The notes beneath the pieces are model-generated. The model was not told the DNA's origin. It did not search any database and was given only the letters and a program-made list of their open reading frames with translations. Position numbers and translations under genes: made by a program. Of a stretch of 22,097 nt of DNA, positions 306-22,097 are shown in pieces; position 1 is the first letter of the stretch; each line of letters begins with the position of its first letter. This DNA is from Ardenticatenaceae bacterium. GTDB taxonomy: Bacteria > Chloroflexota > Anaerolineae > Promineifilales > Promineifilaceae. The stretch spans positions 1 to 22,097 of the forward strand of contig JACKBR010000069.1 in assembly GCA_020634495.1 (NCBI GenBank). The letters run 5' to 3'.

Positions 306-503
306 ATGGAAAAAGAAAAGGAATTGGGGGAAAACGGCCGTTTCTGGTGGCGCAAACCGGATGAAGTGAAGTGTACCAATCCCCAACCAAAGCCAGGAGA
401 CATCTGTACCCATTGCGGTGAAGGCAAGCTCGCTTTCGATGACCTGTTCATCCTTGCCTGCGACCGCTGCCAGCACATTGCTGACAGCGGCGGCTTTACC
501 TGA
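306..503 (+). CDS. 65-residue zinc-ribbon-like protein, copy 1
   Basis: A small protein whose C-terminal half carries C-x2-C-x14-C-x2-C (ICTHC ... ACDRC), a plausible zinc-binding ribbon, followed by QHIADSGGFT. Family not recognised. The best support for it being real is a second copy at 2737-2892 that keeps the same protein ending (CTHCGEGKLAFD...LFILAC..CQ.IADSGG.T) while differing at many bases, several of them synonymous (for example CAT/CAC, GGT/GGC). The N-terminal part ENGRFWWRK is encoded across an AACGGCCGTT palindrome. No strong ribosome site precedes the ATG, so the start is uncertain. A different-frame ORF at 125-364 overlaps it and was judged spurious. Confidence 0.5.
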   Translation: MEKEKELGENGRFWWRKPDEVKCTNPQPKPGDICTHCGEGKLAFDDLFILACDRCQHIADSGGFT

Positions 504-579
504 TAGCTTTCCTGACGAGCGGCGTGTTCGCTTACGAAATGTGAAATTGACTGGTGTGGCGTGGTAGCGAGTGGGTTAG

Positions 580-789
580 GAAAGGCGGCCCGGCCTCTGG
601 CCGCGCCGCAGCCAGACGAGGTTTCGCGCTCGCCGAAGACCGTGCCACAGCAAGGCAGACTGGTATAATCCACAAAGCTGGGGAAATCCAAGAGCAGATA
701 GAATAGTGAACAGCTTGCAGTCCGGAACTGATTCATACTTGAATCCAATGCCACAAAAAACGTACTTACCTATCGTGGTCAAACATTAA
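580..789 (+). pseudogene. 3' remnant of an exported-protein gene ending in a YLPIVV tail
   Basis: The frame is open from 580 (after a TAG at 577-579) to a TAA at 787-789, but it has no plausible start. The last 45 or so residues look like real protein: DWYNPQSWGNPRADRIV, then NSLQSGTDSYLNPM, then KTYLPIVVKH. A short terminal TYLPxVV-type tail is, as I recall, frequent on secreted Chloroflexota proteins, which would make this the severed C-terminus of a surface protein. Upstream of about 640 the frame reads as arginine-rich, non-protein-like sequence, so the break point is probably near there. The rest of 504-845 holds nothing else coding, apart from the start of the gene at 846. Confidence 0.4.
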
Positions 790-845
790 CTTTAGAAAAC
801 CATACATAATAATGTGAGCTAGAGATTTTGTAATGGAGGTATCCT

Positions 846-867
846 TTGATTGTTAGAAAGAGAGAAT
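846..867 (+). pseudogene. severed 5' end of the small membrane-protein gene (joins 1744-2228)
   Basis: A GGAGG at 835-839 lies six bases before a TTG at 846. From there seven codons (LIVRKRE) run into the IS element, where TAG (867-869) stops them. Removing the element and one AAT target copy joins base 867 to 1744 and restores one open frame of 507 bases (168 residues), reading REYNTKRGSYLVISYRYQ and on into the membrane protein at 1821-2228. Frame, ribosome site and target duplication all agree, so this is very probably the original start. Confidence 0.7.
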
Positions 868-907
868 AGACCTCTTGCATAAGTAGAAAATTAGGCATAA
901 TTGCTGG

Positions 908-1306
908 ATGAAATATGCTGAGATTCAAAACTTATCCGATGCGAAATTTAAACGTTTAACGGGTGTGCCACACCCAATCTTTAAACAAATGGTGGCTATT
1001 CTAGAAAAAACAATGCCCACCTTTGGTAGACCACCTAAATTGTCACGGGCAGACCAACTCTTGTTGACCCTGATGTACTGGCGAGAGTATCGTACCCAGT
1101 TTCATATCAGCCAGGCCTATGGGATTAGCGAGTCAGCCGTTTGCCGGACAATCCAGCAAATTGAAAACAGGCTTGTCGAGTCAGGGCAATTCACATTGCC
1201 TGGCAAGAAAAAGTTGCAAACTAGCGATACGCTCATCGAAGTTGTCATTGTTGATGCCACCGAACAACCGATAGAACGACCCAAAAAAACAAAAGAGGCA
1301 CTTTAG
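908..1306 (+). CDS. IS5-family transposase, N-terminal part (orfA)
   Basis: This 132-residue frame carries the helix-turn-helix DNA-binding domain (about 42-92, RPPKLSRADQ ... HISQAYGISESAVCRTI) and the first catalytic Asp at D116 in VVIVDATEQPIERPKK. It ends at TAG 1304-1306, shortly after a run of seven A (1283-1289). The natural continuation of the family, KQKRHFSGKKK, lies in the +1 frame from the same A-run, so the full enzyme needs a shift there. The DDE domain is therefore split between this frame and the one ending at 1724. ATG 908 lies 40 bases inside the left end of the element. Confidence 0.85.
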   Translation: MKYAEIQNLSDAKFKRLTGVPHPIFKQMVAILEKTMPTFGRPPKLSRADQLLLTLMYWREYRTQFHISQAYGISESAVCRTIQQIENRLVESGQFTLPGKKKLQTSDTLIEVVIVDATEQPIERPKKTKEAL

Positions 1307-1370
1307 TGGCAAGAAAAAGTGCCATACGCAAAAAGCGCAGGTCATCGTCAACTTAACAACCCTGGAAATT

Positions 1371-1724
1371 GTGACCACAGCCTTTAGTGAAGGCAAGAAA
1401 CATGATTTCAATCTGTTCAAAGAGAATGGCCAAGGGATGGTACAAACTATCACTTGCTTAGCTGATTCAGGATATCAAGGCATCGCTAAGCTTCACAAGA
1501 ATAGCCAAACGCCCAAAAAGAAATCTAAGCATCATCCTCTCACTAAAGAGGAGAAAGCAGCGAATCGGGCATTGGCGAAAGCCAGAATCTATGGTGAGCA
1601 TGTGATAGGCAAGCTCAAGATATTTCGTATTTTGAAAGAGCGATATCGCAATCGCCGCAAACGGTTTGGTTTGCGATTCAACTTGATTGCTTCGATTTAC
1701 AATCTGTCACTTGGAGTAAAGTGA
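1371..1724 (+). CDS. IS5-family transposase, C-terminal part (orfB)
   Basis: This frame holds the rest of the catalytic domain: Asp in TCLADSGYQG (D32 counted from the GTG at 1371) and Glu in YGEHVIGKLK (E76), completing the DDE triad begun in the upstream frame. The C-terminus RFGLRFNLIASIYNL is typical of IS5 transposases. The GTG at 1371 is unlikely to be a true start: the frame is open from 1290 and reads QKRHFSGKKKCHTQKAQVIV, which belongs to the transposase core. Joined with a single +1 shift at the A7 run, the product would be about 271 residues, a normal length. It is either made by frameshift or slippage, or the element is dead through a small indel. Confidence 0.85.
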   Translation: MTTAFSEGKKHDFNLFKENGQGMVQTITCLADSGYQGIAKLHKNSQTPKKKSKHHPLTKEEKAANRALAKARIYGEHVIGKLKIFRILKERYRNRRKRFGLRFNLIASIYNLSLGVK

Positions 1725-1820
1725 CTTATGCAAGAAGTCTAATATAATACGAAGAGGGGAAGCTATCTGGTTATCAGCTATCGTTATCAACGAGAACCTA
1801 CAAGCTTAGTCAATTGGGGT

Positions 1821-2228
1821 ATGGTTGTCCTGTCAATAAGTTTCCTGTTATTTGGCATTTTAGGATATGAGAGTTCCTTATTAGGAATACGCGGATTGAT
1901 TGTCGGTGCTGGTATCTTTCTAACTTATGCCTCTATAGCAATAGCAATTAATGAAAATGAAATATGGTTTCAAGACAATAAGCTAATTATTAAATATGTA
2001 CCCGTACCTTGGTATAGTCGCGTAAATAAGGTCAAACTAGGTAACATCAAAAGAATCGTGCTAACAATACGGAGTAACGGACGTAATCCAACCATTCCCT
2101 GTATTGATATGGAAATGAAGAACGGGAAAACACAAAAGTTCATAGTTGCTTCAAATGTCGAAGAAGCCAAAGAGATTATTGCAGAAATGAACCAGGCACT
2201 TAGGAATTGGCAAACCAAATCACTTTAG
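1821..2228 (+). CDS. small membrane protein, 3' part of a gene cut by the IS element
   Basis: Two hydrophobic segments (about residues 2-18 and 23-45) are followed by a soluble domain: ENEIWFQDNKLIIKY, then KVKLGNIKRIVLTIRS, then MEMKNGKTQKFIVASNVEEAKEIIAEMN. The alternation of short beta strands, ending in a helix with the 'E..K.II.EMN' pattern, resembles bacterial PH-like domains attached to a membrane anchor. This is a fold-level guess and no family was recognised. The frame is open back to 1743 and continues across the IS to a TTG at 846, so the present ATG (weak GGGG before it) would give a 135-residue product lacking 33 residues. Composition is AT-rich compared with the genes at 3222 onward, and it carries no AACGGCCGTT palindrome. 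Confidence 0.65.
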   Translation: MVVLSISFLLFGILGYESSLLGIRGLIVGAGIFLTYASIAIAINENEIWFQDNKLIIKYVPVPWYSRVNKVKLGNIKRIVLTIRSNGRNPTIPCIDMEMKNGKTQKFIVASNVEEAKEIIAEMNQALRNWQTKSL

Positions 2229-2349
2229 AGACCAATACGGCGTAAATACGTAATCCGTCTGAAAATTCACACCCCTGCTGGGGCGAGGTCTTCCCATCGC
2301 GCTGTGGGCGGCGTCCCCGCCGTGCCACTGTCTTGGAAAGTTATCATCA

Positions 2350-2401
2350 AAGATTTCACAGATTAACCAGATTTTTCAATCTTTTCAATCTATGAAATCT
2401 T
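2350..2401. repeat. 9-bp inverted repeat with CACAGATT-like core
   Basis: AAGATTTCA (2350-2358) and TGAAATCTT (2393-2401) are perfect inverted copies around a 34-base spacer containing CACAGATTAACCAGATT. This is the same kind of repeat as at 7146-7176. Confidence 0.5.
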
Positions 2402-2488
2402 GATTTTTCTTCACGACAGCACGCTCGTTACACTGTTAACTCAGATTGTTTGCTTGGCCATGCCTCTGAAGGCAGGCAAACTTCTTGG

Positions 2489-2508
2489 ATTCCCGCCTTC
2501 GCGGGAAT
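2489..2508. repeat. ATTCCCGC-CTTC-GCGGGAAT hairpin repeat
   Basis: A perfect 8-bp stem with a CTTC loop, followed by GACA. I know this short hairpin as a widely scattered intergenic repeat in many bacterial genomes. Here it could stop transcription from either side, but no T-run follows it. Confidence 0.65.
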
Positions 2509-2555
2509 GACAATTGACAATGCCTTGCTAACAATTCACTTATTGCCCCTAAAAA

Positions 2556-2765
2556 TTACGGCCGTTCCAAATCCAGCATAGTTCCCAAAGCAGCTTCCAG
2601 CGCCTCTACCGAAACGCCCAATTGTTCAGCAACAGCCATTAAATCAGGAGGGCCAAGTTCCGGATCGCCCAAGGCGGTTTGCAGTTCTTGTTCTGTCACA
2701 CCCAACTGTGCGGCGGCTTCGGCCAATGGGCCACCGGAAAACGGCCGTTCGTTTATGAAACGCAC
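2556..2765 (-). CDS. small protein with two LGV..ALG repeats, possibly a C-terminal fragment
   Basis: The 69-residue frame starts at GTG 2765. It contains two copies of a helical motif 28 residues apart: AAAQLGVTEQELQTALG (17-33) and VAEQLGVSVEALEAALG (45-61). Motifs of this form occur, often in pairs, at the C-terminus of larger bacterial proteins, so this may be the tail of a lost gene. The purposeful repeat argues that the frame was under selection. The first ten residues (MRFINERPF) overlap the damaged zinc-ribbon copy on the other strand and include an AACGGCCGTT palindrome, so they may not belong to the original protein. Another ACGGCCGTT lies at the stop end. Function unknown. Confidence 0.5.
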   Translation of the reverse strand: MRFINERPFSGGPLAEAAAQLGVTEQELQTALGDPELGPPDLMAVAEQLGVSVEALEAALGTMLDLERP

Positions 2766-2892: not shown

Positions 2893-2988
2893 TAGCGCCA
2901 AACTTGGGATAGCGTGTCTATTCAACAGGTAGAGCCATAGATATACTTTTGGTAAAATATTCTCGGAGCTTCTTCTCCTCACCTTCTA

Positions 2989-3722: not shown

Positions 3723-3815
3723 ATTGATGTGAAACCTTTTGCAATCTGCCACGTAATGGGGTGCATATCAAATCAACTTGTTAAAAAACACAAACTGTGT
3801 GGAGGCATTTAGAAA

Positions 3816-4100: not shown

Positions 4101-4145
4101 AGAAACGGCCGTTGCCCATGAAAGTGTGGTAACGGCCGTTTTTTT
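4101..4145 (+). terminator. intrinsic terminator made of two AACGGCCGTT palindromes
   Basis: AACGGCCGTT at 4104-4113 and 4131-4140 pair with each other over 10 bp (extendable by A:T and G:T pairs into the flanks) around a 17-base loop. Seven T follow from the end of the stem (4139-4145). It lies 46 bases after the pspC-like stop. Each copy is also self-complementary, so competing folds are possible. Confidence 0.55.
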
Positions 4146-5957: not shown

Positions 5958-7123
5958 GCAAATACCTGTCTGCGGGGCTGATGATTGCGCTCTTCTTTGT
6001 GGTTTTGTTTGGGCCAATTCCGGTGCCGCCTTCGCTGGGTCGGGGTGATTTTCGGGCGTATTGGAGCGCGGCGCATTTATTGGCGCAAGGCGAAAATTTT
6101 GCCGATGCGGAGCTATTGCTGCAAACGGAGCAGGAAAATACCGAATGGCGCGAAGATTGGGCGGTGATTACCTGGAATCCGCCGTGGCTGTTGGCGATTT
6201 TGTTGCCGTACACGGCCGTTTCCTTTCCAAGAGCGACCTGGCTGTGGCTGCTAACCAATATTGCCCTGGTGTTTACTGGCTCGGTTATGTTGTGGAAAAC
6301 ATTTGCTGCGCAAAATGGCAGCCAGCGGTGGGGACATTTGGCTCCATTGGTGGGGCTACTGTTTTTGCCCACTATGCTCACCTTGTTAATGGGGCAGGTG
6401 AACTCGCTCGTTTTTTTTGGTTTGGCCGCATTTTTGTTCTTTTTCAACCGAAACCAGCTTTTTGTGGCGGGTCTGTGCCTTGTTTTGACGTTGGTCAAGC
6501 CGCACCTGGTCTACCTGACGCTGCCAATTATTTTTTTGCACCTGCTGTGGACGCGGCGGGATTTAAAGGTGGCAGCCGGATTGCTGGTGGGGATTGTGGT
6601 GTTAACGGCCGTTGTGTTTGGATTACGGCCGTCTTTCATCGCCGACTACACGCAAACCGTTAGCCAAGGTAGCCTGCTTGCCTGGGAAACACCCACGCTG
6701 GGCGGCATTTTGGCCGTCACCTTTGGCTGGCAGTGGGCCAAGCTCATGGGTGTTGTTACGTTGCCGCTCGTGGCCTGGCTGTGGTGGCGCTACCGCGAAA
6801 CAGTAGATTTAAACAGTTGGGTTCCGGCCATGACATTGATTTCGGTCATTTCAGCTCCGTTTGGCTGGGGGTACGATGTCATTGTATTATTGCTGCCTGT
6901 GCTGCAAATTGTGGTTTGGCTTGCCGAAGGGCGCTTTACCCGAACGGAAGCCATCGGCTGGGGTACAATGCTAATTGGCATTAACCTGGCTGCTATTTAC
7001 CAAAGAAGCTTTGAAATTAGCGAGGTGCATACGTTTTGGGTACCCATCGCTTTGGCTATCGTCTATTTTCTGGCGTATTTCCGCCAAAAAAGCGAACCAA
7101 AAACAATTAGAATGCTGTCTTAA
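5954..7123 (+). CDS. GT87-family (DUF2029) membrane glycosyltransferase
   Basis: A 389-residue polytopic protein with about ten membrane segments. After the first segment comes GRGDFRAYWSAAHLLAQG (about 29-46) with an acidic residue facing outward, then WNPPWLLAILLPY, both typical of GT87 enzymes. These use polyprenyl-phosphate sugars on the outer face of the membrane. The TTG start is chosen because AAGGAG (5943-5948) stands five bases before it and its last two bases are shared with the stop of the GT4 gene (TTGA); an internal ATG at 5987 would cut the first helix. Two AACGGCCGTT-type palindromes only about 20 bases apart (near 6605 and 6627) are read in different frames as LTAVVFG and LRPSF. 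Confidence 0.8.
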   Translation: MSKYLSAGLMIALFFVVLFGPIPVPPSLGRGDFRAYWSAAHLLAQGENFADAELLLQTEQENTEWREDWAVITWNPPWLLAILLPYTAVSFPRATWLWLLTNIALVFTGSVMLWKTFAAQNGSQRWGHLAPLVGLLFLPTMLTLLMGQVNSLVFFGLAAFLFFFNRNQLFVAGLCLVLTLVKPHLVYLTLPIIFLHLLWTRRDLKVAAGLLVGIVVLTAVVFGLRPSFIADYTQTVSQGSLLAWETPTLGGILAVTFGWQWAKLMGVVTLPLVAWLWWRYRETVDLNSWVPAMTLISVISAPFGWGYDVIVLLLPVLQIVVWLAEGRFTRTEAIGWGTMLIGINLAAIYQRSFEISEVHTFWVPIALAIVYFLAYFRQKSEPKTIRMLS

Positions 7124-7306: not shown

Positions 7307-8005
7307 ATGGAATTACGAGCATTTTTTGCAATTTTTTGGCGGCGCTGGCTGCTGGTGCTGATTCCGCCGCTGGTGGTGGGGCTGTTCAGCGCAGTGACCT
7401 TCCAGCCGCCGCCTGCGCCGGGCTACAACGTGGGGGTTAACTTTCTGGTGGCTCAGCCTCCTGCGCCCAGCGCAGAGTTGGCAGACCAGGAACGGTATTA
7501 CAACTGGCTTAGTTCGGAGTACATTGTGAATGGACTGACGGATTGGGCGGTGAGTGGCAGTTTTAAAACGGCCGTTTCCACCCAACTCGCCGCAGAAGGT
7601 ATCGAAGTCCCGCCCGGCAGCTTTAGCGTGGCCGCCGATAACGTGCGCAGCAAGCTCCAGCTTTCTATTCAGCATGGGGATGCGGAGAGGCTGGCGCAGA
7701 TCATGGACGCGGCCATCACGGTGCTGAGTGAGCAAAATGCAGCCGCTTTGCCCCAACTTGGGGGGGAAACGGCCGTGCTCACCCTACTCGACGAACCCAT
7801 TGTGACCCCCCTGCCGCGCAGCCTCAGCAGCTTGCTGAACATCCCCTTGCGGCTGGCCATTGGCCTGGCGGCGGGGCTAGGACTGGCGCTGCTGGTAGAA
7901 TACCTGGACCCCACCATCCGTAGCCGGGAAGAAGCAGAAGCGATGGGATTTGTGGTCTTGGGGGAAATTCCGAAGGGGAGTTTTTCAGTAAAAAGTGATA
8001 AGTGA
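7307..8005 (+). CDS. Wzz-type chain-length determinant / BY-kinase adaptor, first copy
   Basis: A 232-residue protein with an N-terminal membrane helix (RRWLLVLIPPLVVGLFSAVTF, about 12-32), an extracytoplasmic helical region (40-175), and a second helix (about 180-205) followed by EYLDPTIRSREEAEAMGFVVLGEIP, the proline-containing C-terminal pattern of Wzz proteins. Such proteins form periplasmic or cell-surface rings that set polysaccharide length and activate a partner tyrosine kinase. The ATG at 7307 is used rather than the frame to 7127, which translates an intergenic repeat. The last residues GSFSVKSDK and the stop come from a repeat (7987-8050), so the native C-terminus may have been replaced. 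An ACGGCCGT copy encodes KTAVST and another ETAVLT. Confidence 0.75.
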   Translation: MELRAFFAIFWRRWLLVLIPPLVVGLFSAVTFQPPPAPGYNVGVNFLVAQPPAPSAELADQERYYNWLSSEYIVNGLTDWAVSGSFKTAVSTQLAAEGIEVPPGSFSVAADNVRSKLQLSIQHGDAERLAQIMDAAITVLSEQNAAALPQLGGETAVLTLLDEPIVTPLPRSLSSLLNIPLRLAIGLAAGLGLALLVEYLDPTIRSREEAEAMGFVVLGEIPKGSFSVKSDK

Positions 8006-8840: not shown

Positions 8841-9485
8841 ATGGAATTAGTAACAATAACAAACCCGCGTTCGCCGATGAGTGAAGCGTACCGCACGCTG
8901 CGAACAAATCTATCTTTTTACAGTTTGGACGCCCCGTTGAAAACCCTGGTGGTAACGTCGCCGGTGATGGGCGAGGGTAAAAGCAGCACGGTGGCCAATC
9001 TGGCGGTGACGATGGCCCAAAGCGGCCGTAAAACGGCGCTAGTGGATTGTGATTTGCGACGGCCGTCTTTGCACACTTTCTTCAACTTAAATGCCGAACC
9101 GGGCTTTACGGATGCCATTTTGCACAATGATGAGCCAGTTTTGCAGGAAACGGCCGTATCGAACCTGTGGCTGTTGGCGGCTGGCACCAAGCCACCCAAT
9201 CCCGCCGATATTTTGGGCACCCCGCAGGTAGATCAGCTCATCGCCCGGCTACAAGAAAAGGTAGACATCATTTTGTTTGATGCCCCTCCGGTGAATGCGG
9301 TGACGGATGCGGCCGTTTTGGGGGCGAAGGTGGACGGCGTGCTGCTGGTCCTGAGCGCGGGCAAAACCCGCCGCGATCATGCGGAACGCGCCAAAGAAAT
9401 CCTGGAAAAGGCGCGGGTCAACATCATCGGAGCCACGCTCACCAATGCCCCGGTGGATAGTTCGATGGAAGCGTACTATGGGTGA
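8841..9485 (+). CDS. BY-kinase-type capsule/exopolysaccharide ATPase (CpsD/CapB family)
   Basis: A 214-residue free-standing cytoplasmic kinase domain. In order: EAYRTLRTN (15-23), the oligomerisation motif; Walker A GEGKSST (44-50); Walker A' ALVDCDLRRP (66-75); Walker B IILFDAPP (143-150). It should autophosphorylate on C-terminal tyrosines when joined by a Wzz-like partner and so control polysaccharide assembly. The C-terminal cluster is unusually small: only AYYG, with the stop inside a GGTGACAAGG repeat, where family members often carry several Tyr. Either two tyrosines suffice or a longer tail was lost to the repeat. ACGGCCGT copies are read as RRPS and ETAVSN. It is the last gene before a terminator. 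Confidence 0.9.
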   Translation: MELVTITNPRSPMSEAYRTLRTNLSFYSLDAPLKTLVVTSPVMGEGKSSTVANLAVTMAQSGRKTALVDCDLRRPSLHTFFNLNAEPGFTDAILHNDEPVLQETAVSNLWLLAAGTKPPNPADILGTPQVDQLIARLQEKVDIILFDAPPVNAVTDAAVLGAKVDGVLLVLSAGKTRRDHAERAKEILEKARVNIIGATLTNAPVDSSMEAYYG

Positions 9486-13336: not shown

Positions 13337-14899
13337 CTATAAGTTCGATTCCTGAACGGCCGTTTGCTCTGTCTGCCGACGAAGCTCTGAATTGTTGAAG
13401 GCTTCGTCCATCAGGTGGAACAACGTCGGGCGCGGCTGTAAAACGAGGAATGATTGAAAAGCAAACACAGATCTGCGCAACCAGATCAGCATCCCGTTTA
13501 GCCATAGCAAAATACGCGACACAAAACCATGCCCGAAAATAAGCGGGAAAGGTACAGGCGTACTCTTCACTTCCAAAACCTCATAATTTGCTTGTTGAAA
13601 AAGGCTAATGATGGAGCGGAACGTAAACAAGCGCGTGTGCGTCAGATCAAGAATGCCTCGCTTGCCGTAATTAAAATTCCCCAAAAGCAAGCTCAAGCGC
13701 GTGAGAAAAAAGCCAACATTGCCCGTGCTGATGATCACTTTCGTTTTTTGAGGGTTTGCCGCTGTGCGCAAGTCATGCGCAAAGGATTCTGGTGATTTAA
13801 GATGCTCAATGACATCAAGCGCCAAAATGTAGTCAAAACCCTGGTAATCAATATCTGGCAAACCGTGATCCAGATCATGCACAATAAATTCATCCAGGAA
13901 AATTTCTTTGGGGAGCGGGAACATATCAACGCCGGTTACCTGGCACCCTTTTTCTTTCAAAGCGACCCCAAGATACCCACCCGCACAGCCCAGGTCCAAC
14001 ACTCTGGCACCTGGTTCTACCATATTTAGCACGTGCCAATGCGGGCTGGGAAAGTTGAGTTTGGCCGTGTAGTGTGCGGTGGGGGCATTTGGAGATACGC
14101 AATCATATTTGCGTTCATAAACAATATTGAAACCCTGTGCTCTCGCTTTGGTGGTTGTTTTAACCACGTCAAAAGCATACCGCAGCCCATTTACATGGCA
14201 AATTTCATCGCCATAATAAGTAGGAATCGGCAGTTCCTTGATTTGGTAACCGGCAAGATGAATCTGGATAAGAATTTCCGTATCAAAATGAAAATCATTT
14301 GAATTAAGCTCGAATGGAATATTGCTTAAAGCTTCCACTGAATAGATGCGATATCCCGAATGGTATTCGCTTAGGTTTGTCCCTAGCAGTTTATTCTGGT
14401 ACCAGGTCAATATTCGGTTGCCAATGTATTTGTACAATGGCATCCCACCTTTTCTGGCAGCTTTTGGGGTAATCATTCTGGAACCTATAACAGAATCTGC
14501 TTGCCGTTGCAGCAAAGGTTGCATTAATTCTGGCAAAATTTCAGGGGCATATTGGCCATCGCCATGCAATAAAGCAACGTAATCGAAGCCGTTCTGAATA
14601 GCATACCAGTACCCAAGTTTTTGGTTTCCGCCATACCCTTGGTTGACTGGGTTAGCCAGAACCCTTAACTTGAAGGGGAATTCGCCTGTGGCTTCTACTT
14701 CTAAAGCTTTTTCAAAGGATTGATCCTGGCTAGCATCGTCTATAACCAAAATCTCTACGTCAAGATTTTTTCCGAGTTCCGGGGGAATACGATAGAGAAC
14801 TTTTCGAATAAAGTTTTCTGCGTTGTAAGCGACGATGAATATCAGTAAACGCTGGCGCGGCTTATGCTCAGAAACTGAAAATCCGTTTAATAATTCCAT
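13337..14899 (-). CDS. bifunctional GT2 glycosyltransferase / SAM-dependent methyltransferase
   Basis: A 520-residue fusion. Residues 18-250 form a GT2 (DPM1-like) domain: FIVAYNAENFI (21-31), ILVIDDASQDQS (50-61), NPVNQGYGGNQKLGYWYA (83-100), and LLHGDGQY (110-117) with metal-binding D114. Residues 285-400 form a class I methyltransferase: RVLDLGCAGGYLGVAL (299-314), VTGVDM (321-326), and DYILALDVIEHLKSP (356-370). The C-terminus has a possible membrane-associated segment (about 445-475). Such fusions are known in bacteria. The GT2 half probably makes polyprenyl-phosphate sugar for the GT-C proteins around it. GAGGG lies five bases before the ATG. The last residues (EQTAVQESN) are encoded through an AACGGCCGTT palindrome. 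It leads the two-gene minus-strand unit. Confidence 0.9.
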   Translation of the reverse strand: MELLNGFSVSEHKPRQRLLIFIVAYNAENFIRKVLYRIPPELGKNLDVEILVIDDASQDQSFEKALEVEATGEFPFKLRVLANPVNQGYGGNQKLGYWYAIQNGFDYVALLHGDGQYAPEILPELMQPLLQRQADSVIGSRMITPKAARKGGMPLYKYIGNRILTWYQNKLLGTNLSEYHSGYRIYSVEALSNIPFELNSNDFHFDTEILIQIHLAGYQIKELPIPTYYGDEICHVNGLRYAFDVVKTTTKARAQGFNIVYERKYDCVSPNAPTAHYTAKLNFPSPHWHVLNMVEPGARVLDLGCAGGYLGVALKEKGCQVTGVDMFPLPKEIFLDEFIVHDLDHGLPDIDYQGFDYILALDVIEHLKSPESFAHDLRTAANPQKTKVIISTGNVGFFLTRLSLLLGNFNYGKRGILDLTHTRLFTFRSIISLFQQANYEVLEVKSTPVPFPLIFGHGFVSRILLWLNGMLIWLRRSVFAFQSFLVLQPRPTLFHLMDEAFNNSELRRQTEQTAVQESNL

Positions 14900-14993: not shown

Positions 14994-15080
14994 TGGGCAG
15001 ATTGTCATCTTTACGGCCGTTCTAACCCAAAAGCTGTTTGGCATTTTCCCAGTTGCAGGGCAACAAAGTGAGGTATTCGA

Positions 15081-16559
15081 GTGCAAATGACGGCCGTTTC
15101 CCCCAAAACCAGCTACCAACTCACCATTCTAACTGTTTTGGGAGCCATCCTCCGGTTTGTTAACCTGGGGCGCGACAGCTTGTGGCTAGATGAGGCGATT
15201 AGCTACCTGGCGGCCAGATTACCCGTGACCCAAATTGCTAATAATACAGTGCAATCGAGCCACCCACCGTTTTACTATTTGCTGCTGCATCTTTGGTTGA
15301 ACATTGTGCCAGATTCCGATACGGCCGTAAAGCTCCTCTCCACCCTCTTTGGCATCCTGCTCATCCCGGCGGTTTACTTTTTGAGCCAACAGCTATTTGA
15401 AAATCGCACCATTTCTTTAACGGCGGCGGCGCTAACGGCCGTTTCCCCCTTCCACATCCTCTACAGCCACGAACTGCGCATGTATACTTTGCTGATGCTG
15501 CTGGTGGTGCTGGCAACGGCCGTTACCCTGCACACGCGGCAAAAAGAGAGCAATGGCTGGTGGCTGGTGGCTGGTGGTTTGTGGCTGATGGCGGTTTACA
15601 CCCACCTGTTTGCTTTTTTGGCGCTGGCGGGCGTGGGGCTTCATGCCCTACTCAATTTTCGGCAAAACAAACGCGCCTTTTGGGCCACGACCATCCTGAC
15701 GGCCGTTATCCTGGTCTGCTTTATCCCCTGGCTGAATTTAATGTTGGGGGAAGCACAGCCAGATTTGGGCAGTTTACGGCCGTTGCAATCCGCCGAAATC
15801 TTAAATCCGCTCAAGCCACTCACCGCGCCAGTTTTTTTGCTGTTTGGCATGTCCAACACCTTTTGGTACAGCGGCATCTGCCTGTTCATCGTCATCGCCT
15901 ACCTGATCATCCTGACGATGGAGCTGCGCAAGCTGGGACGCACCCAAATTCCTTCTGGCCTGAAGCTCACCATGATCATTATCGCCAGCGTATTGGGGGT
16001 GCCCGTTTTGGTATATTTGGTACGGCCGTTTTTCCTGCCAGAGCGCACTTTGGCCGCCGCCGCACCATTCCTGGCCATCCTGCTGGCCTGGGGGATGAGC
16101 CGCCGCCAGTCGCCGCTGCCCTACCTCACCGGGCTGGCGCTGCTACTGATGCTGGCAGGTACCATGATCTACCACCTGGGACCGCTGGTGAAGCCGCCCT
16201 ACCGGGACGCCGCCGCCTTTGTGGTGGAAAATGCCCAGCCCGGCGACCTGGTTTTGCACACTAGCGACGGCTCCTACCTGCCCGCACTGCGCTACGCCCC
16301 CCAGCTCACGCAAGGCGTGCTGGCTGGCGACCCCGACCCCCGCAAACCGGAAGCGGTTTATGCCGCGCTGGGTGGGCAAGTTTGGGAGATGGCAGATGTA
16401 GAGGCGATGGCAAACGGCCGTTTCTGGGTCATAGTCGCACTGGAGCACAGCATCGAGTGGCAGCAAGCGCAGTACGATACCATCACTGCCCGCCACACCC
16501 TGCTGGACGAGCAGGACATTGGCGGCATTCGCATTTTTTTGTTTGAGCTGGGTGATTGA
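15081..16559 (+). CDS. GT39/ArnT-like GT-C glycosyltransferase, first of a tandem pair
   Basis: A 492-residue polytopic protein. After the first helix it has RFVNLGRDSLWLDEAISYLAAR (25-46), the classic acidic WxDE loop of GT39/PMT_2-type enzymes with catalytic Asp at D37. It is followed by SSHPPFYYLLLHLW (59-72) and HELRMYTLLM, both standard in the family. These enzymes move a sugar from a polyprenyl carrier to protein, lipid A or glycan outside the membrane. The GTG at 15081 is chosen because GAGGT (15070-15074) precedes it at six bases; an ATG two codons later is the alternative. The gene is dense in AACGGCCGTT palindromes, at least eight, mostly read as TAV. Its stop overlaps the start of the next gene (TGATG). 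Confidence 0.85.
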   Translation: MQMTAVSPKTSYQLTILTVLGAILRFVNLGRDSLWLDEAISYLAARLPVTQIANNTVQSSHPPFYYLLLHLWLNIVPDSDTAVKLLSTLFGILLIPAVYFLSQQLFENRTISLTAAALTAVSPFHILYSHELRMYTLLMLLVVLATAVTLHTRQKESNGWWLVAGGLWLMAVYTHLFAFLALAGVGLHALLNFRQNKRAFWATTILTAVILVCFIPWLNLMLGEAQPDLGSLRPLQSAEILNPLKPLTAPVFLLFGMSNTFWYSGICLFIVIAYLIILTMELRKLGRTQIPSGLKLTMIIIASVLGVPVLVYLVRPFFLPERTLAAAAPFLAILLAWGMSRRQSPLPYLTGLALLLMLAGTMIYHLGPLVKPPYRDAAAFVVENAQPGDLVLHTSDGSYLPALRYAPQLTQGVLAGDPDPRKPEAVYAALGGQVWEMADVEAMANGRFWVIVALEHSIEWQQAQYDTITARHTLLDEQDIGGIRIFLFELGD

Positions 16560-18151
16560 TGAATTGGCAAAAAGGTTGGTGGAAACGGCCACTTCGACTA
16601 GGCTCAGTGCAAGCGTATCCCACCCTGCTGCTCATCTTGCTGCTGGCCTTCGCCCTGCGGTTGTATGGCCTGGCCAACCAAAGCCTTTGGTGGGATGAGC
16701 TAAAAACGTGGGAACGCGCCACCGTGCCGCTCAACCAGATGCTTACCAACCTCATCGGCATCCGCGACCAGGTGCCGCTTTACTACTGGATGATGCGCTT
16801 TTGGCGCACAATCGGCACGGAACCAACGATCCTGCGGCTATTTTCCGTTTACTTTGGCACTTTAAGCATCCCCCTCGTTTACAAAATCGGCCGTCGGCTG
16901 GATGGGCAAGCCACCGGGCTGCTGAGCGCTTTTTTATTGGCCATCTCCCCCTTCCACATTTGGTATTCGCAAGAAGTGCGCATGTATACCCTGCTGCCCG
17001 CGCTGCTGCTGCTGGCACACTTTTGCCTGCTGCGCCTGCTGCAAACCAACCGCTGGCAGCTTTGGCTGGCCTACGGCCTGGCGATAACGGCCGCTTTGTA
17101 CACCCACTACTTTGCCTTTTTTGTGGTGCTGGTGCATTACATCTTTTTTGTGCTGCACCTGCGACAAATTCGCCCACAAACGATGCGCTGGTTCCTCACC
17201 ATGCTGGCGGTAGGTGCTGCGTTTGCCCCGTGGGCCTACCTGGTTATCACACAGACAACTGGCTACAGTGCGGCCGTTCCTGACTGGATCAATCGCATCC
17301 AATGGCACGATTTGCTCCAGACGCTTACCGTGTTTGCCGCTGGCTTTGGGCTGGGGCGCGGCAGTTGGCTGGCCGCCATTTGCGCCGCAATTTTTCTCGT
17401 CGGCGTTGGCAGCAGCCTTCAATTTTTGCCCAAAAAAGAGGCAACCAAATTACCCTTACCCCCGCAAACGCTCCATACCCGCCTGCTGTTCATCTGGTTT
17501 TTGCTGCCGCTGCTCATCACCTTCCTGGTTTCGGTAGAGAATGGTTTACTGCCCGACAGCGGCTTCTCGGTTTACCACGACCGCTACCTGCTCATTAGTT
17601 TGCCGCCATTTTTGTTGCTGGCAGCTTTGGGATGGCAGCGGTGGCGCAAGCAGACGGCCGTTTTCTGGCCGCTGCTTCTGCTCATTTCGATTGTTTCCGG
17701 GATTGGATTGTGGCAACAAGTGAATAATCCCGCCTATGCCCGCACTGGTTGGAACAGTGCTTTTGCCCAAATGGAGCAGATCGCCCCAGAAGGAACCGTT
17801 ATCATTGGCCACAAAGATGTGCTGCTGCCGGTGAGTTATTACGGGAACGGCCGTTACCCCTTCATCCAAATTCCGCCACCAGAAACCGACCACATCACCC
17901 CGGTTTTTGCCGAAACGATGGCCCAACAGTTAGCCTTAGCCGCAGACGAACACAGTTTGGTCTGGCATATTGAGCAATTTTACAATTTTGACCCACACGG
18001 CTACCCAGATGTGCGCAATACGGCCGTTGTCAGCCCAGCCGCAACCCCCACGCGCACCTGGCTCAATGCCCACTTCACCATTTTAGACCAACGTGAGTTG
18101 CCCGGTTTGCGCCTGACGCTTTATGATTTGGAAGCTGAAGCGCAAAATTAA
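16559..18151 (+). CDS. GT39/ArnT-like GT-C glycosyltransferase, second of a tandem pair
   Basis: A 530-residue paralogue of the preceding gene: FALRLYGLANQSLWWDELKTWERA (31-54) with catalytic-loop Asp D46 (WWDE), QVPLYYWMMRFW, then LAISPFHIWYSQEVRMYTLL, nearly the same as VSPFHILYSHELRMYTLL in the first copy. The two probably arose by duplication and diverged in acceptor loops, since HPPFYY has become QVPLYY. The ATG at 16559 shares one base with the previous stop; a TTG three bases earlier is possible. The N-terminal residues RPLRLGSVQ are encoded by a short repeat (16590-16612), so the first 20 residues may be recent. Palindromes encode QTAVFW, GNGRYP and NTAVVS. The C-terminal 120 residues are soluble. 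Confidence 0.85.
   Translation: MNWQKGWWKRPLRLGSVQAYPTLLLILLLAFALRLYGLANQSLWWDELKTWERATVPLNQMLTNLIGIRDQVPLYYWMMRFWRTIGTEPTILRLFSVYFGTLSIPLVYKIGRRLDGQATGLLSAFLLAISPFHIWYSQEVRMYTLLPALLLLAHFCLLRLLQTNRWQLWLAYGLAITAALYTHYFAFFVVLVHYIFFVLHLRQIRPQTMRWFLTMLAVGAAFAPWAYLVITQTTGYSAAVPDWINRIQWHDLLQTLTVFAAGFGLGRGSWLAAICAAIFLVGVGSSLQFLPKKEATKLPLPPQTLHTRLLFIWFLLPLLITFLVSVENGLLPDSGFSVYHDRYLLISLPPFLLLAALGWQRWRKQTAVFWPLLLLISIVSGIGLWQQVNNPAYARTGWNSAFAQMEQIAPEGTVIIGHKDVLLPVSYYGNGRYPFIQIPPPETDHITPVFAETMAQQLALAADEHSLVWHIEQFYNFDPHGYPDVRNTAVVSPAATPTRTWLNAHFTILDQRELPGLRLTLYDLEAEAQN
16590..16612. repeat. CACTTCGACTAGGCTCAGTGCA-type repeat inside a coding start
   Basis: The stretch around ACTTCGACTAGGCTCAGTG closely resembles a dispersed intergenic repeat (CTTCGACT..GCTCAGT) I know from several bacterial groups. 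Here it lies in frame near codons 11-18 of the second GT39-like gene. Confidence 0.4.
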
Positions 18152-18204: not shown

Positions 18205-20147
18205 CGCAAAAACAGTGGCTGCCCGCACTCATTTTGGGTGGGCTGGTGCTGTTCGTTTTTATTGAGATGAGCGCCCTAAGCCTGGCCAAATTTGCTGGAT
18301 TCAACAGCAAATATTTTGACCTGGGTGCGATGAGCCAGGCCATTTGGAGCGCCACGCAGGGCGAACCGCTCATTTTTACCGGGCAGGGCATCGCCATCAG
18401 CCGCTTGACCCGGAATGTGGAGCTGATCTATTTTGCCATTGCCCCGATTTATGCGCTGTTGCCCACGCCGCAAACGCTGCTCGTCATCCAGGCGCTGCTG
18501 TACGCCTTGGGCGGCATTCCCCTGTACCGATTGGCCAATCGCAAATTGCAGCATTCGGCTTACGCGCTTGTGGTAACTGCCATTTACCTTTTTTACCCGG
18601 TGGCGCAAACGGCCGTTCTCGCCGAATTTCACTCCGACACCTTGGCCGCGCCCTTTTTGCTCTTCGCCATCGCAGCCGCCGACCGAAAGGCATGGCGCAG
18701 CTATGGCTTTTGGCTGGCGCTGGCTCTGAGCTGCAAATTTTACGTAGCAGCACCCGTGGCGGCGCTTGGCGCGGTGCTCTGGCTCAAAGGGGAGCGACGC
18801 GCCGGGCTGATCACCAGTTTGGCGGCAGTTGGTTATGGCCTGATTGCCTTCTTTGCCATCCGCGCCGCCTTTGCCCCGCCCGCCGCCGAGGTGGCCCAGG
18901 CGGTCAACGTGCAGTCCAGCGCCCTGGGCTACCTGACCAGCCGTTTTAACTTGCCCTTTATTGCGCAAACGCTCACGCTGCGGCTGGTTCATGCGGTGAT
19001 TGTGCTGATGCCCGCTCTGCTGCTGTTGGCCTGGCGCGCCCCACTCTGGCTGCTGCCAGCCGCCGTCACCGTGCTGCCTGCCCTGCTCAGCAGCGATTTT
19101 GGGCCGTCGTTCAGCTATCGCACCCACCACTATGCATTGGCCGCGCCGTTTTTGGTAACGGCCGTTCTCTATGGCACCATCAAACAACTCAATGATCCAG
19201 TGCCCAAAGGCAAAAAACCAGCCTGGCAAGGACGGCTGCGCCTCACGCTGTTCATGGTTCTGGCCTTCAATCTGGCATTTATTGATACACCCATCAGCCC
19301 CCAGTTTTACCTGGATCGCCCAGCCCTGGACCAGGGTCTAAGCAGTACGCGCTTTGGCGTAATTCCTCGCGACAGGTTTAAGGCAGATTGGCTGGCGGGC
19401 AACGTGCCAGCGCATGTGCCGTTAGCCGCCGACCAGCTTTCGGCCGTACGGCTGGCCAACCGGGAGGTTTTGTACCTGACCAATTACGTAGACGGCCGTT
19501 CGCTTACCGAACTACTGCCGCAGGTGGATTACGTCGTCACCGATGCCCTCTACGATGCGGCGACGGCCGACCCCGTAGACACCGAGCGCATCTTCGAGGG
19601 CGGGGTCAGCTATGAATACGAAACCATCCTCACCATGCTAGGCCAAGCCGAATTCAAGCTGCTGGCCATGCAGGATGGCTTACTGCTGTTTGGGCGCACG
19701 GGGGAAGGGTTGGCAACAAGCCAAGCTCCCGGAGGTTCAGAACCTCCGGGAAGTTCCCCCATACATTTGTTCAACGAAATCGCCCTGCTCGACTACAAAA
19801 TCGAGCCGGTTGGGGCAAATCGGTACCAAATCACGGCAACCTGGCAGCTAACCACGCCACTGGATGCCGCGCCCAATCGCTTTGCCGTGACCCAAATTGC
19901 CGGGCTACCCAACACGCGGCTGGTGCATCTGCCAGTTTCCATTCTGGCACCGCCCAAAAGCTGGGCGATTGGGGATACCTTTACCGAATCGTTTGAATTT
20001 GCGCTGCCCGCCGACACGCCTGTTGGCAGCTACACCCTCAGCGTCGGCTGGTACGATGCAGACCACATTTTTGCCGCCCACACGGACGCACGCAGTCGCC
20101 TGGGCGAGGCAGCAAGCGTGGGTGCGATTACAGTTCTGGGAGATTAG
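18180..20147 (+). CDS. DUF2079-like polytopic membrane protein with a C-terminal beta-sandwich-like domain
   Basis: A 655-residue protein. FNSKYFDLGAMSQAIWSATQGEPLIF follows the first helix and is the DUF2079 signature (usually FDLGIFDQALW). LAEFHSDTLAAPFLLFAIAA matches the later FH-containing helix. DUF2079 proteins are GT-C-fold, presumed glycosyltransferases. After about ten helices comes a soluble region. The last 120 residues (ALLDYKIEPVGANRYQITATWQL ... LSVGWYD) look like a beta-sandwich that could bind glycan or protein outside the cell. A palindromic repeat (19727-19751) encodes PGGSEPPG in the linker just before it. The ATG at 18180 is preferred: the frame to 18123 overlaps the previous gene by 29 bases. 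The stop lies in another repeat (20147-20182). Confidence 0.75.
   Translation: MTRSFTEKTQKQWLPALILGGLVLFVFIEMSALSLAKFAGFNSKYFDLGAMSQAIWSATQGEPLIFTGQGIAISRLTRNVELIYFAIAPIYALLPTPQTLLVIQALLYALGGIPLYRLANRKLQHSAYALVVTAIYLFYPVAQTAVLAEFHSDTLAAPFLLFAIAAADRKAWRSYGFWLALALSCKFYVAAPVAALGAVLWLKGERRAGLITSLAAVGYGLIAFFAIRAAFAPPAAEVAQAVNVQSSALGYLTSRFNLPFIAQTLTLRLVHAVIVLMPALLLLAWRAPLWLLPAAVTVLPALLSSDFGPSFSYRTHHYALAAPFLVTAVLYGTIKQLNDPVPKGKKPAWQGRLRLTLFMVLAFNLAFIDTPISPQFYLDRPALDQGLSSTRFGVIPRDRFKADWLAGNVPAHVPLAADQLSAVRLANREVLYLTNYVDGRSLTELLPQVDYVVTDALYDAATADPVDTERIFEGGVSYEYETILTMLGQAEFKLLAMQDGLLLFGRTGEGLATSQAPGGSEPPGSSPIHLFNEIALLDYKIEPVGANRYQITATWQLTTPLDAAPNRFAVTQIAGLPNTRLVHLPVSILAPPKSWAIGDTFTESFEFALPADTPVGSYTLSVGWYDADHIFAAHTDARSRLGEAASVGAITVLGD
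19727..19751. repeat. perfect 25-base palindrome inside a coding region
   Basis: TCCCGGAGGTTC and GAACCTCCGGGA are exact inverted copies around one A. They are translated in frame as APGGSEPPGS, between the membrane part and the C-terminal domain of the DUF2079-like protein. Confidence 0.75.
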
Positions 20148-20182
20148 AGATTGGAGAATGGAGGCTAATAATCTCCAACCTC
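20147..20182. repeat. inverted GAGATTGGAGA repeat at a gene end
   Basis: GAGATTGGAGA (20147-20157) pairs with TCTCCAACCTC (20172-20182) at ten of eleven positions. The last base of the TAG stop of the DUF2079-like gene starts it, and it ends ten bases before the next ATG, so it could also affect translation of the following gene. Confidence 0.55.
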
Positions 20183-20192
20183 CCAATGAAAT

Positions 20193-21842
20193 ATGACAGA
20201 AATTTCGCGAAAAGAGTGGTTTATGGCAGCAGGTGTGGCGGTGATGACGGCCGTTCTCACCCTGATTCCGTATTGGCTGGGCAACCTGCTGGCCCCGGAT
20301 GGCCTCGTTTACATGCAGCTCATCATGAACCCGGAAGATTCCTTGACCTATTGGGCCAAAATGCTGCAAGGGTTCGATGGCGCATGGCTGTACACCATTC
20401 CCTTCACGCCGGAGCCACACGCAGCGGCGGGCGTGGGTCTGTTTTACGTCTGGCTGGGGCAGTTGGCGCGGGGCTTGGGGGTGTCGTTAACGGCCGTTTG
20501 GCACGGCAGTCGGTTTGTGGCCAGCATCATTCTATTTTTGACCACGTTTGGTTTTGTCGCCGCCTTTTTGCCCGACAGGCGTTCTCGCTGGACGGCGTAC
20601 CTGCTGGCCATTTTTGGCTCCGGGCTGGGCTGGCTGCTGTTTGTGCTGGGGCAAAACTTCTGGCTGGGCGCGTTCCCGGTGGATTTCAAGCAGCCTGGGG
20701 CGCATCTTTTTTTCACGGCACTGACGTTTCCGCACATTTCGGTGGGAACGGCCGTAATCCTGCTGGATGTGCTTGTTTTGCAAAAAATCAGTAATCGGTA
20801 TTCAGTGAACGGTAATCGGTGGGGGTGGGCAGTTTTGGTGGGGCTGGCAAATGTGGTGCTGGGTGTGGCGTATCCGTTTTTGATTTACATTGTGGCGGGA
20901 ACGGCCGTTCTCACCTATCTCCGACTCATCATCCAACACCGTAAAATTTTATGGCGCGAGGGGTGGCAAATCGCGATGATGTTCCTCATCCCCGCACCGC
21001 TTTATTTGTACTACCTTTCCGTCTGGCGCAGCAACGAGGTGTTTCGCCTGTGGGATGCCCAGGCGGGGACGCCCGCCGCGCCGTGGCCCCACTATCTGGT
21101 TGCTTTTGGGCCGCTGCTGCTGCTGGCCGGGCTATTCTGGTGGCAGCGACCAGAAAAACGCCCTCAGTTTGCCATTTTGTGGGTGTGGATTCTCACTGCC
21201 GCGCTGCTGCTTTACTCGCCGCTGCTGCCGCAGCGCCGCTTCATCCAGGGGGTACACGTGCCGCTGGCGGTGCTGGCGGCGGCTGGATTTGTGCAAATTG
21301 TGCTGCCACGCTGGCAAAACGGCCGTTTCTGGCAAAAAGTCGTCGCCCACCCCCGCTACACCACACCCAAGCTGCGTCGCTTTGTTATCATGATCTTCCT
21401 GCTGGGGATGAGCCTGTCTAACATTTACCTGTGGCTGGACGTGAGCCGCATTGCTGCCCTCACCCAGCCAGATTTGTTCTTTCGGCCAGCGGTGGAAATG
21501 GAAGCGATAAACTGGCTACGCGAAAGTGGCGTGCAAACGGCCGTTGTCCTCGGCAGTTATGAAACCGGGAATCTGGTGGCAGCGCAAGCCGGGCAGCGAG
21601 TGATGCTGGGGCATTGGGCTGAGACGGTAGATTTTGCGGGGAAGGAAACGGCCGTAACCCAATTCTTCACCGCTGAAACAGACAACGCCTGGCGGCAAAA
21701 TCTGCTGCGCGAGTTTGGCATTGATTACGTTTGGTTTGGCCCCCGCGAAAAAGAGCTGGGCGGCTTTGATCCGCACACGGCCGTTTTCCTCGCCCCGATC
21801 TTCAAAAATGAAGCCATCACAATCTTCACTGTTTTGCCATAG
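20193..21842 (+). CDS. large polytopic membrane protein, GT-C-like, family not recognised
   Basis: A 549-residue protein: one N-terminal helix, then an outer segment LAPDGLVYMQLIMNPEDSLTYWAKMLQGF with acidic residues (D35, E47, D48) where GT-C enzymes carry their catalytic acid. Next come PEPHAAAGVGLFYVWLGQLARGLG and about ten more helices. The C-terminal 120 residues are soluble (MEAINWLRESGVQTAVVLGSYETGNLVAAQAG ... YVWFGPREKELGG), a nucleotide- or sugar-binding-like pattern also seen at the end of other GT-C-like proteins here. A repeat is read in frame as ISNRYSVNGNR in a loop (about 199-209). No ribosome site is visible before the ATG; the inverted repeat at 20147-20182 stands there instead. 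It is the most palindrome-dense gene of the window, with about eight copies. Confidence 0.7.
   Translation: MTEISRKEWFMAAGVAVMTAVLTLIPYWLGNLLAPDGLVYMQLIMNPEDSLTYWAKMLQGFDGAWLYTIPFTPEPHAAAGVGLFYVWLGQLARGLGVSLTAVWHGSRFVASIILFLTTFGFVAAFLPDRRSRWTAYLLAIFGSGLGWLLFVLGQNFWLGAFPVDFKQPGAHLFFTALTFPHISVGTAVILLDVLVLQKISNRYSVNGNRWGWAVLVGLANVVLGVAYPFLIYIVAGTAVLTYLRLIIQHRKILWREGWQIAMMFLIPAPLYLYYLSVWRSNEVFRLWDAQAGTPAAPWPHYLVAFGPLLLLAGLFWWQRPEKRPQFAILWVWILTAALLLYSPLLPQRRFIQGVHVPLAVLAAAGFVQIVLPRWQNGRFWQKVVAHPRYTTPKLRRFVIMIFLLGMSLSNIYLWLDVSRIAALTQPDLFFRPAVEMEAINWLRESGVQTAVVLGSYETGNLVAAQAGQRVMLGHWAETVDFAGKETAVTQFFTAETDNAWRQNLLREFGIDYVWFGPREKELGGFDPHTAVFLAPIFKNEAITIFTVLP
20788..20820. repeat. AGTAATCGGT repeat inserted in frame in a coding region
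   Basis: TCAGTAATCGG, TATTCAGTGAACGG and TAATCGGT are the same units found between genes at 8712-8750. Here they encode a hydrophilic loop between two membrane helices without breaking the frame. Confidence 0.65.
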
Positions 21843-21916
21843 ACGAATCTGCAAATTTACCCTAAAATTCCCGGCACAAATTTTTTTGAAATTTTTATGG
21901 AAATCAGCTTACCCAA

Positions 21917-22097
21917 ATGCGCGCACTTCTCCAACGAGTCTCTTCAGCCAATGTCACTGTAAACGGCCGTATCATCGGCCAAATTCAGCGCGGTTTTGTC
22001 ATTCTGCTGGGCGTGACGCATGGCGACACGACCGCCGAAGCGGACTGGCTGGCCAACAAAATCGCCGGGCTGCGCCTGTTTGAGGATGAAGCGGACA
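21917..22097 (+). CDS. dtd: D-aminoacyl-tRNA deacylase, N-terminal part
   Basis: The first 60 codons of Dtd, cut by the window end: [45 protein letters not shown], and [15 protein letters not shown]. The [17 protein letters not shown] and KI..LR.FED blocks are highly conserved in the family. Dtd removes D-amino acids from mischarged tRNAs in the cytoplasm. It is unrelated to the glycan genes and marks the return to housekeeping DNA. 74 bases separate it from the preceding gene, and no clear promoter or ribosome site is visible. The NGR at residues 16-18 comes from an AACGGCCGT palindrome, a position that is usually DG(E/K) or NG in relatives. Confidence 0.95.

Follow-up and report, generated by a model that had tools for sequence, protein, structure and literature searches.

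The 22,097-base stretch of DNA analysed here (positions 1 to 22,097 of contig JACKBR010000069.1, assembly GCA_020634495.1, from an Ardenticatenaceae bacterium of the Chloroflexota; hereafter the window) is studded with the 8-bp palindrome ACGGCCGT, and the question raised by the locus is whether this octamer is maintained by a pressure on DNA, and what the source of such a pressure could feasibly be. A first-pass annotation had put the count at about 44 copies where well under one is expected, had placed the copies mainly inside genes and in all three frames, and had likened the octamer to HIP1, a highly iterated palindrome (HIP) of cyanobacteria that was reportedly described by Robinson et al. 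in 1995 and whose selection is said to have been treated by Xu, Lawrence and Durand in later work. Recounting revealed 44 exact matches spanning positions 334-21970, or about one per 500 bases, against a mean of 0.34 in 100 dinucleotide shuffles of the window, none of which attained 44, and an order-2 Markov expectation of 0.54; the octamer is the most over-represented of the window's 8-mers. The genic location was likewise borne out, with 40 of the 44 sites lying fully within open reading frames (ORFs; mechanically called, at least 120 aa) and all three reading phases being used, albeit in a skewed manner (28, 5 and 7 sites).

Relatives were found via the glycosyltransferase encoded in the window (4857-5957), which identified 21 loci, 18 of them in metagenome-assembled genomes (MAGs) labelled Anaerolineae, Anaerolineaceae, Anaerolinea, Ardenticatenaceae or Chloroflexi. 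Whole-genome counts were made for the genomes of those loci and for 56 genomes of the order around genome G001, with genome sizes rounded to 0.1 Mb. The names carried by the loci and by homologues of a conserved protein (Anaerolineae, Candidatus Leptofilum and Ardenticatenaceae, the last two assigned by NCBI to Promineifilales and Ardenticatenales of the class Ardenticatenia) suggest an order of that class, Promineifilales or Ardenticatenales. The relatives are mostly draft MAGs of unstated completeness, and gene absences among them are therefore weak evidence. Enrichment beyond the window, which the first-pass annotation had proposed as a check, was examined in these relatives and proved positive: ACGGCCGT is present at 991-2,102 per Mb in 27 of the 56 genomes, with a highest total of 15,176 copies in one genome, at intermediate densities in G014, G029 and G052 (421, 437 and 514 per Mb, respectively) and at less than 200 per Mb in the remainder. 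A sample of 298 genomes drawn from the whole class includes 19 that belong to the order, and the other 279 contain at most 430 copies in 3.6 Mb (∼119 per Mb). No palindrome of this kind was reported for Chloroflexi in the literature searched, which covered few subscription papers.

The form of the word differs between lineages. Classification of the 56 genomes gave 28 with ACGGCCGT, two with TCGGCCGA (G013, 61 copies versus 1.1 expected; G037, 148 versus 7.0), one with GCGGCCGC (G050, 13 versus 0.4, in 14.7 kb), six in which the core CGGCCG is over-represented with free flanks (G014, G015, G017, G052, G053 and G054), and 19 with weak or no core excess. The 31 genomes referred to below as octamer genomes comprise 27 in which ACGGCCGT reaches 900 per Mb or more plus G029, G013, G037 and G050, where the assignment of G029 rests on 437 copies per Mb with only nine cores in the sample, and that of G050 on 14.7 kb. 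Genomes G052 (514 per Mb) and G014 (421 per Mb) were classed as free-flank because their flanks are spread. Pooling of G015, G017 and G053 gave 216 cores versus 28.7 expected, with nine of the ten flank pairs raised ∼4- to 11-fold; GCGGCCGC alone was not raised (1 versus 1.5). The densest core was observed in G014, at ∼5 CGGCCG per kb with free flanks (152 versus 22 in a 30 kb sample), while its relative G013 has strict TCGGCCGA. Separately, TGCCGGCA, a different alternate palindrome that had served as the reversed control in the whole-genome counts, is present in 3,665 copies in G034 (4.0 Mb, same order), a 9-kb sample of which has no CGGCCG excess.

Mapping onto an RpoB tree (50 genomes) gave an excess of the CGGCCG core in most of the order, with a varying outer pair. 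Genomes without the octamer (G035, which has 33 ACGGCCGT per Mb, and G041-G048) are nested within the large ACGGCCGT group, several forks being weakly supported. There was no sign of flanks being switched in place, since in five queries, all meeting the same two subject words, the two ACGGCCGT sites per query that could be aligned to locus L013 do not face TCGGCCGA, and neither G013 nor G037 has TCGGCCGA at any of the four rpoB site columns with the widest sharing. The lack of aligned type swaps, at these few sites, suggests that octamers of different types occupy different places. The conserved unit is a two-fold symmetric octamer with a constant CGGCCG core and a lineage-specific outer base pair.

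Comparison of relatives revealed that the octamer is retained well beyond the level of its surroundings. Among the window and loci L001-L003 (six pairs, 76-81% identity), retention of the octamer was 0.77-0.94, as opposed to 0.14-0.27 for 8-mers of the same composition; across all 12 pairs compared the values were 0.50-1.00 and 0.10-0.44, respectively. When the octamer is folded on itself, its four position pairs have identities of 0.89-0.92, compared with a mean of 0.76 (0.64-0.83) for 40 flanking positions. The annotation had also described a form extended by A and T (AACGGCCGTT), and this part of it did not stand: the extension surrounds 21 of the 44 window octamers, identity at the adjoining base (0.76) equals the flank mean, and in G025, a ACGGCCGT genome, the commonest base ahead of the octamer is C (101 of 245). 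The longer AAACGGCCGTTT was accordingly rejected as the true unit, flank conservation being at background and the flanks varying by lineage. It is a base preference of some lineages, lying outside the conserved unit, which is the octamer.

At fourfold-degenerate third positions of codons with matching first two bases (eight pairs compared in both directions, and hence non-independent), 454 of 474 (95.8%) were identical inside octamers and 9,599 of 18,339 (52.3%) elsewhere. Additionally, the most widely shared site columns in rpoB are common to 22 of 23, 20 of 23, 17 of 23 and 15 of 22 high genomes, with further columns shared by fewer. The octamer is thus made and kept at the DNA level, genome-wide in the relatives. 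The freezing of fourfold positions, the retention of rpoB sites over long divergence (the columns in 22 and 20 of 23 genomes) and the symmetry of an octamer with a lineage-specific outer pair are also what would be expected of direct selection, whereby the octamer would be bound by an abundant homodimeric protein that acts throughout the genome, for example in nucleoid packing, replication or repair loading, or strand identity, each copy being slightly beneficial; no candidate for such a protein was identified, and no search aimed at one was made.

The extent to which permitted sites are filled was examined next, by considering the peptides that the octamer can encode. All 28 Thr-Ala-Val (TAV) tripeptides in the window ORFs are coded by ACGGCCGT. 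The same holds for 447 of 463 in a 505-ORF pool drawn from ACGGCCGT genomes, and in 120 kb of G025 the word is present in 121 of 125 TAV, 70 of 77 [YHND]GR and 18 of 26 xRPx contexts. The force, whatever its nature, is strong enough to fix the site nearly everywhere that synonymous codons permit. The peptides themselves are in excess: the 463 TAV of the pool compare with a permutation mean of 86 (5.4 times), whereas two groups of low genomes have no such excess (15 versus 15.6 and 19 versus 25.4). Genomes with TCGGCCGA have 128 SA[DE] versus 34.6 (3.7 times), 113 of the 128 being coded by TCGGCCGA, and no excess of TAV (10 versus 19). The pressure therefore seems able to alter protein sequence. 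For direct selection on a binding site, the filling of most permitted peptide places without sign of diminishing returns is an unfavourable observation.

These data bear also on the possibility that composition at the base, codon or peptide level yields the octamer as a by-product, or that it is a dispersed mobile repeat. Most sites do lie in ORFs and in one phase, and the annotation had named prediction of the number by codon and dipeptide usage alone as grounds for refuting its reading. However, synonymous shuffling of the window ORFs, with protein and codon usage kept, gave 5.25 ± 2.0 copies of ACGGCCGT with a maximum of 12 in 200 shuffles, so far below the observed count that codon and peptide usage fail to predict it; the ORFs of G025 hold 209 sites against a codon-shuffle null of 27.7 ± 5, the non-coding DNA of that genome is equally dense, and low genomes of the same order are without the peptide excess. 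Codon or peptide usage as the cause was rejected on the basis of these nulls and the restriction of the peptide excess to octamer genomes. Conservation, moreover, ends at the 8 bp. The explanation as a whole, mobile repeat included, is regarded as refuted. The view in the annotation that the word is selected or propagated as DNA and not as protein is upheld by its presence in all phases, the frozen synonymous sites and the near-saturated peptide contexts, and with respect to its DNA-level properties ACGGCCGT is almost certainly a highly iterated palindrome of a Chloroflexota order.

Words that differ from the octamer by one base were counted as well. Those lying a single synonymous step short of the octamer are depleted in the pool, both in the core (19 versus 52.2 expected) and at the outer pair (7 versus 20.9), whereas those requiring a non-synonymous step are not (core, 104 versus 122.3; outer, 86 versus 35.6). 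Outer one-offs in G025 are at 1.1, 2.1 and 3.7 times expectation and core one-offs at 0.2-0.8, with the exception of ACGACCGT (4 versus 2.1, or 1.9 times). The window is roughly similar, with most deviation at positions 1 and 8 and a protected core, and the TCGGCCGA genome G037 has a weaker pattern (outer 0.4-1.3, core 0-1.2). Soft binding by a protein would predict an excess of core near-misses, and their being mostly below expectation in G025 is a second point against direct selection.

A third is provided by the spacing of sites, which is random and not even. The coefficient of variation (CV) of spacing in G025, outside a single island, is 0.89 and 0.93 (random, 0.98 and 0.99), and that in G037 is 0.91 (random, 0.99); there was no sign of even spacing in either genome. 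Over-dispersion in G025 arises from the island itself, which is low in GC and poor in sites (C1 38,514-49,463). The DNA around the island is otherwise dense in sites. As an aside, it might be possible to use the density of sites as a clock for DNA acquired horizontally. Density in G025 is 1.99 per kb in coding and 2.04 in non-coding DNA, the corresponding values being 1.33 and 1.62 in G037 and 2.26 and 0.92 in the window. Random spacing, together with equal coding and non-coding density in G025, indicates that the force looks intrinsic to the site. The spacing fits a force acting site by site over time, and neither a ceiling of one site per kb nor the rhythm of a scaffold.

HIP1 of cyanobacteria is GCGATCGC, with TCGATCGA, GGGATCCC and GGCGCC as alternates, and has a density of 300-2,700 per Mb (Elhai 2015; PMC4390886, in part). 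The same source, in part, describes deviations from cyanobacterial HIPs as greatest at positions 1 and 8 with the core protected, and the various forms as replacing each other. The Chloroflexota element resembles HIP1 in being an 8-bp palindrome found at hundreds to thousands per Mb, genic and in all phases, in having a 6-bp core whose outer pair takes an alternate form in certain genomes, with hexamer-only alternates as well, and in occupying most of the permitted peptide contexts; the replacement of forms, here ACGGCCGT, TCGGCCGA, GCGGCCGC and free-flank CGGCCG, within one order is shared with HIPs generally. It is unlike HIP1 in its core (CGGCCG, not CGATCG) and phylum, in reaching up to ∼2 per kb with nothing to suggest a ceiling at one per kb, and in using its contexts more fully (TAV, 447 of 463). 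The HIP1 figures for the last comparison are from plasmids only: on two cyanobacterial plasmids (50 kb each) HIP1 occupies 14 of 18 and 15 of 17 AIA contexts, and 8 of 12, 7 of 15, 1 of 8 and 3 of 8 contexts in the other phases. The HIP1-like reading given in the annotation is thus well founded, given enrichment genome-wide in relatives, presence in all phases, frozen synonymous sites, saturated contexts and a constant core with changing flanks. By the features examined, the methyltransferase link apart, the octamer is a HIP-type element in a second phylum, and is not HIP1. Elhai has proposed a GmeC-directed ratchet that halts at about one site per kb (PMC4390886, in part), which fits less well here because density reaches about two per kb with no ceiling seen.

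Other classes of short repeat provide further points of comparison. The DNA uptake sequences (DUS) of Neisseriaceae and uptake signal sequences (USS) of Pasteurellaceae are, like the octamer, short dense words with drive-like accumulation where tolerated, and the octamer could in principle be such a sequence, with competent cells importing DNA that bears it and recombination spreading it through the genome. Its density is of the order typical of such sequences. The case for drive of short words through biased uptake is made in PMC1939737 (in part), where uptake sequences are, however, described as non-palindromic, whereas the octamer is a perfect palindrome, and its core one-offs are mostly depleted. 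One-mismatch forms are given by the same source as enriched both for uptake sequences and for 10-bp HIP1 (1,830 versus 160 expected), and since both are enriched this feature fails to separate the two. An origin as an uptake sequence is considered improbable.

Repetitive extragenic palindromic (REP) elements share with the octamer the properties of being palindromic and highly repeated. They are longer and intergenic, whereas the octamer spans 8 bp and falls mainly in genes (40 of the 44 window sites), coding and non-coding DNA of G025 being equally dense in it. REPs are also given as longer and intergenic in PMC5317091 (in part), and the palindrome described there, 18 nt and mainly intergenic, is of a different kind. 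Elements of ∼65 bp that resemble REPs or miniature inverted-repeat transposable elements were observed at L179:2361-2425 and L179:17682-17748, with many matches in G022-G026, the first having matches on both strands.

The first-pass annotation had suggested a search for an orphan methyltransferase. A classical restriction-modification imprint, in which a CGGCCG- or GGCC-specific C5 methyltransferase would explain the word, has in its favour matches to PF00145 in 26 of the 56 genomes and the cognate methyltransferase that most cyanobacterial HIP genomes carry (PMC4390886, in part). Matches were distributed between 17 of 31 octamer and 9 of 25 other genomes (p = 0.19), with no match in 14 of the 31, which are mostly draft MAGs, a further difference from cyanobacterial HIPs. 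The C5 methyltransferase is not supported as the driver, there being no association with the octamer and the compared enzymes being a mixed set, and the restriction-modification explanation is largely refuted and highly improbable. One C5 enzyme, common to G014, G017, G053 and G041, we take from its motif to be Dcm-like; the G041 copy (C2:145,231-146,526) adjoins a gene for Vsr, a mismatch endonuclease found in eight of the 56 genomes. MutL was detected above cut-off in 51 of 56.

Methyltransferases matching PF01555 (E < 1e-15), also a mixed set, were found in 25 of 31 octamer and 13 of 25 other genomes (p = 0.04). Five octamer genomes (G001, G005, G018, G025 and G029) yielded neither a PF00145 nor a clear PF01555 enzyme, and four of these, G005 being the exception, encode a DUF1156-like protein of ∼655 aa, the G029 copy being a contig-edge piece and those of G001 and G018 being 61% and 58% identical to that of G025. 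The protein, one copy of which is encoded at L214:1276-3249 on the minus strand, has motif I ahead of TDPPYFDS and weakly resembles DUF1156 methylases, PglX and HmaB, and its matches to solved structures are at motif level only (best CcrM, E 2.3e-4). Its gene neighbours vary among genomes, and none in the short flanks of four genomes looks like a nuclease. This putative orphan methyltransferase was found in 29 of 31 octamer genomes and in 14 of the 25 others (p = 0.0013, or 0.0015-0.0034 on moving or dropping G029 and G050, ignoring kinship), but in none of the six free-flank genomes among the latter. Presence was scored at E ≤ 1.5e-98, and some of the copies so scored, several in number, are pieces at contig edges; weak hits in G006, G034 and G055 (1.2e-4 to 9.1e-6) were scored as absent. 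The enzyme was not found in G035, the low-octamer genome inside the ACGGCCGT group. The orphan candidate nearly tracks the octamer but is also present in genomes lacking it, and no C5 enzyme tracks the octamer, so that the link to methylation suggested in the annotation is tentative. The conserved DUF1156-like orphan amino-methyltransferase is the best, albeit unproven, candidate for reading the outer base pair.

The explanation that we favour has the octamer being recognised by a symmetric, presumably dimeric protein; strict symmetry, a constant core and a changing outer pair point to such a recogniser. Biased mismatch correction would convert near-miss words into the full palindrome, or hold them in that form, operating on each site individually and being tied to a modification of the DNA there. 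Modification-linked biased mismatch correction as the source of the octamer is favoured but unproven, and is put at slightly short of an even chance; the whole explanation, of a HIP-type element plus modification-linked correction, is evenly balanced.

A number of observations weigh against this explanation. Most of the patterns that it accounts for would also follow from simple selection for a binding site. Locus L179, of G025, retained octamers at only 0.44 and 0.29 in comparison with L187 and L188, where controls were retained at 0.30 and 0.29, its range over all comparisons holding sites being 0.29 to 1.00. Depletion of synonymous core one-offs is not wholly peculiar to the octamer, since the ratio was 0.72-1.27 for six of seven control palindromes but 0.19 for ACCGCGGT. 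With regard to the DUF1156-like enzyme, the 14 non-octamer genomes that carry it include all eight of G041-G048, it was not found in the octamer genomes G005 and G006, the copy in G037 is divided between two frames, the tree of the enzyme does not group by palindrome type, and its association with the octamer was computed ignoring kinship, with octamer classes that were assigned by hand and partly from small samples, from a few kb upward. Even so, modification-linked mismatch correction is ranked as the most likely source, followed by binding-site selection, which is possible but doubtful, while uptake drive is unlikely.

The positions of the octamer in the window are collected in Table 1. Within the longest site-free stretch lies a transposase of insertion sequence type, encoded by two ORFs (908-1306 and 1371-1724; HTH_Tnp_4, DDE_Tnp_4), and the gap would fit recently arrived DNA that has yet to gain sites. 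The transposase (908-1724), divided between two ORFs, is perhaps interrupted.

Table 1. Positions of the octamer, and of the longest stretch free of it, in the window.
Feature	Positions	Strand	Remark
ACGGCCGT	334..341, 2558..2565, 2741..2748, 4105..4112, 4132..4139, 6212..6219, 6605..6612, 6625..6632	.	exact match
ACGGCCGT	7568..7575, 7769..7776, 9059..9066, 9150..9157, 9722..9729	.	exact match
ACGGCCGT	10061..10068, 10192..10199, 10424..10431, 10915..10922, 12076..12083, 13258..13265, 13356..13363	.	exact match
ACGGCCGT	15013..15020, 15090..15097, 15321..15328, 15435..15442, 15516..15523, 15699..15706, 15776..15783	.	exact match
ACGGCCGT	16022..16029, 16414..16421, 17654..17661, 17847..17854, 18020..18027, 18609..18616, 19158..19165, 19492..19499	.	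exact match
ACGGCCGT	20247..20254, 20490..20497, 20748..20755, 20901..20908, 21319..21326, 21537..21544, 21648..21655, 21777..21784, 21963..21970	.	exact match
Longest site-free stretch	342..2557	.	spacing of 2,224 between site starts

What HIP1 does and how it arose have been a puzzle since 1995, and an independent HIP in a second phylum offers a comparison. A single order with three outer pairs, free flanks or loss of the word allows methyltransferase-linked drive, binding selection and mutation bias to be separated. Pressure at the DNA level seems to shape protein sequence in these bacteria, and would affect analyses of codon usage, dN/dS and horizontal transfer. More speculatively, HIPs may be a convergent state, in which a DNA-modifying enzyme and repair together make a symmetric word self-propagating, the word evolving with the enzyme through hexamer states (CGGCCG with free flanks) and octamers of differing outer pair, a DUF1156-like orphan methyltransferase reading the outer pair, and proteomes being rewritten in the process. 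If this tentative view were true, HIPs would be no cyanobacterial oddity, and the drive behind them would be strong enough to rewrite proteomes (TAV, 5.4 times; SA[DE], 3.7 times).

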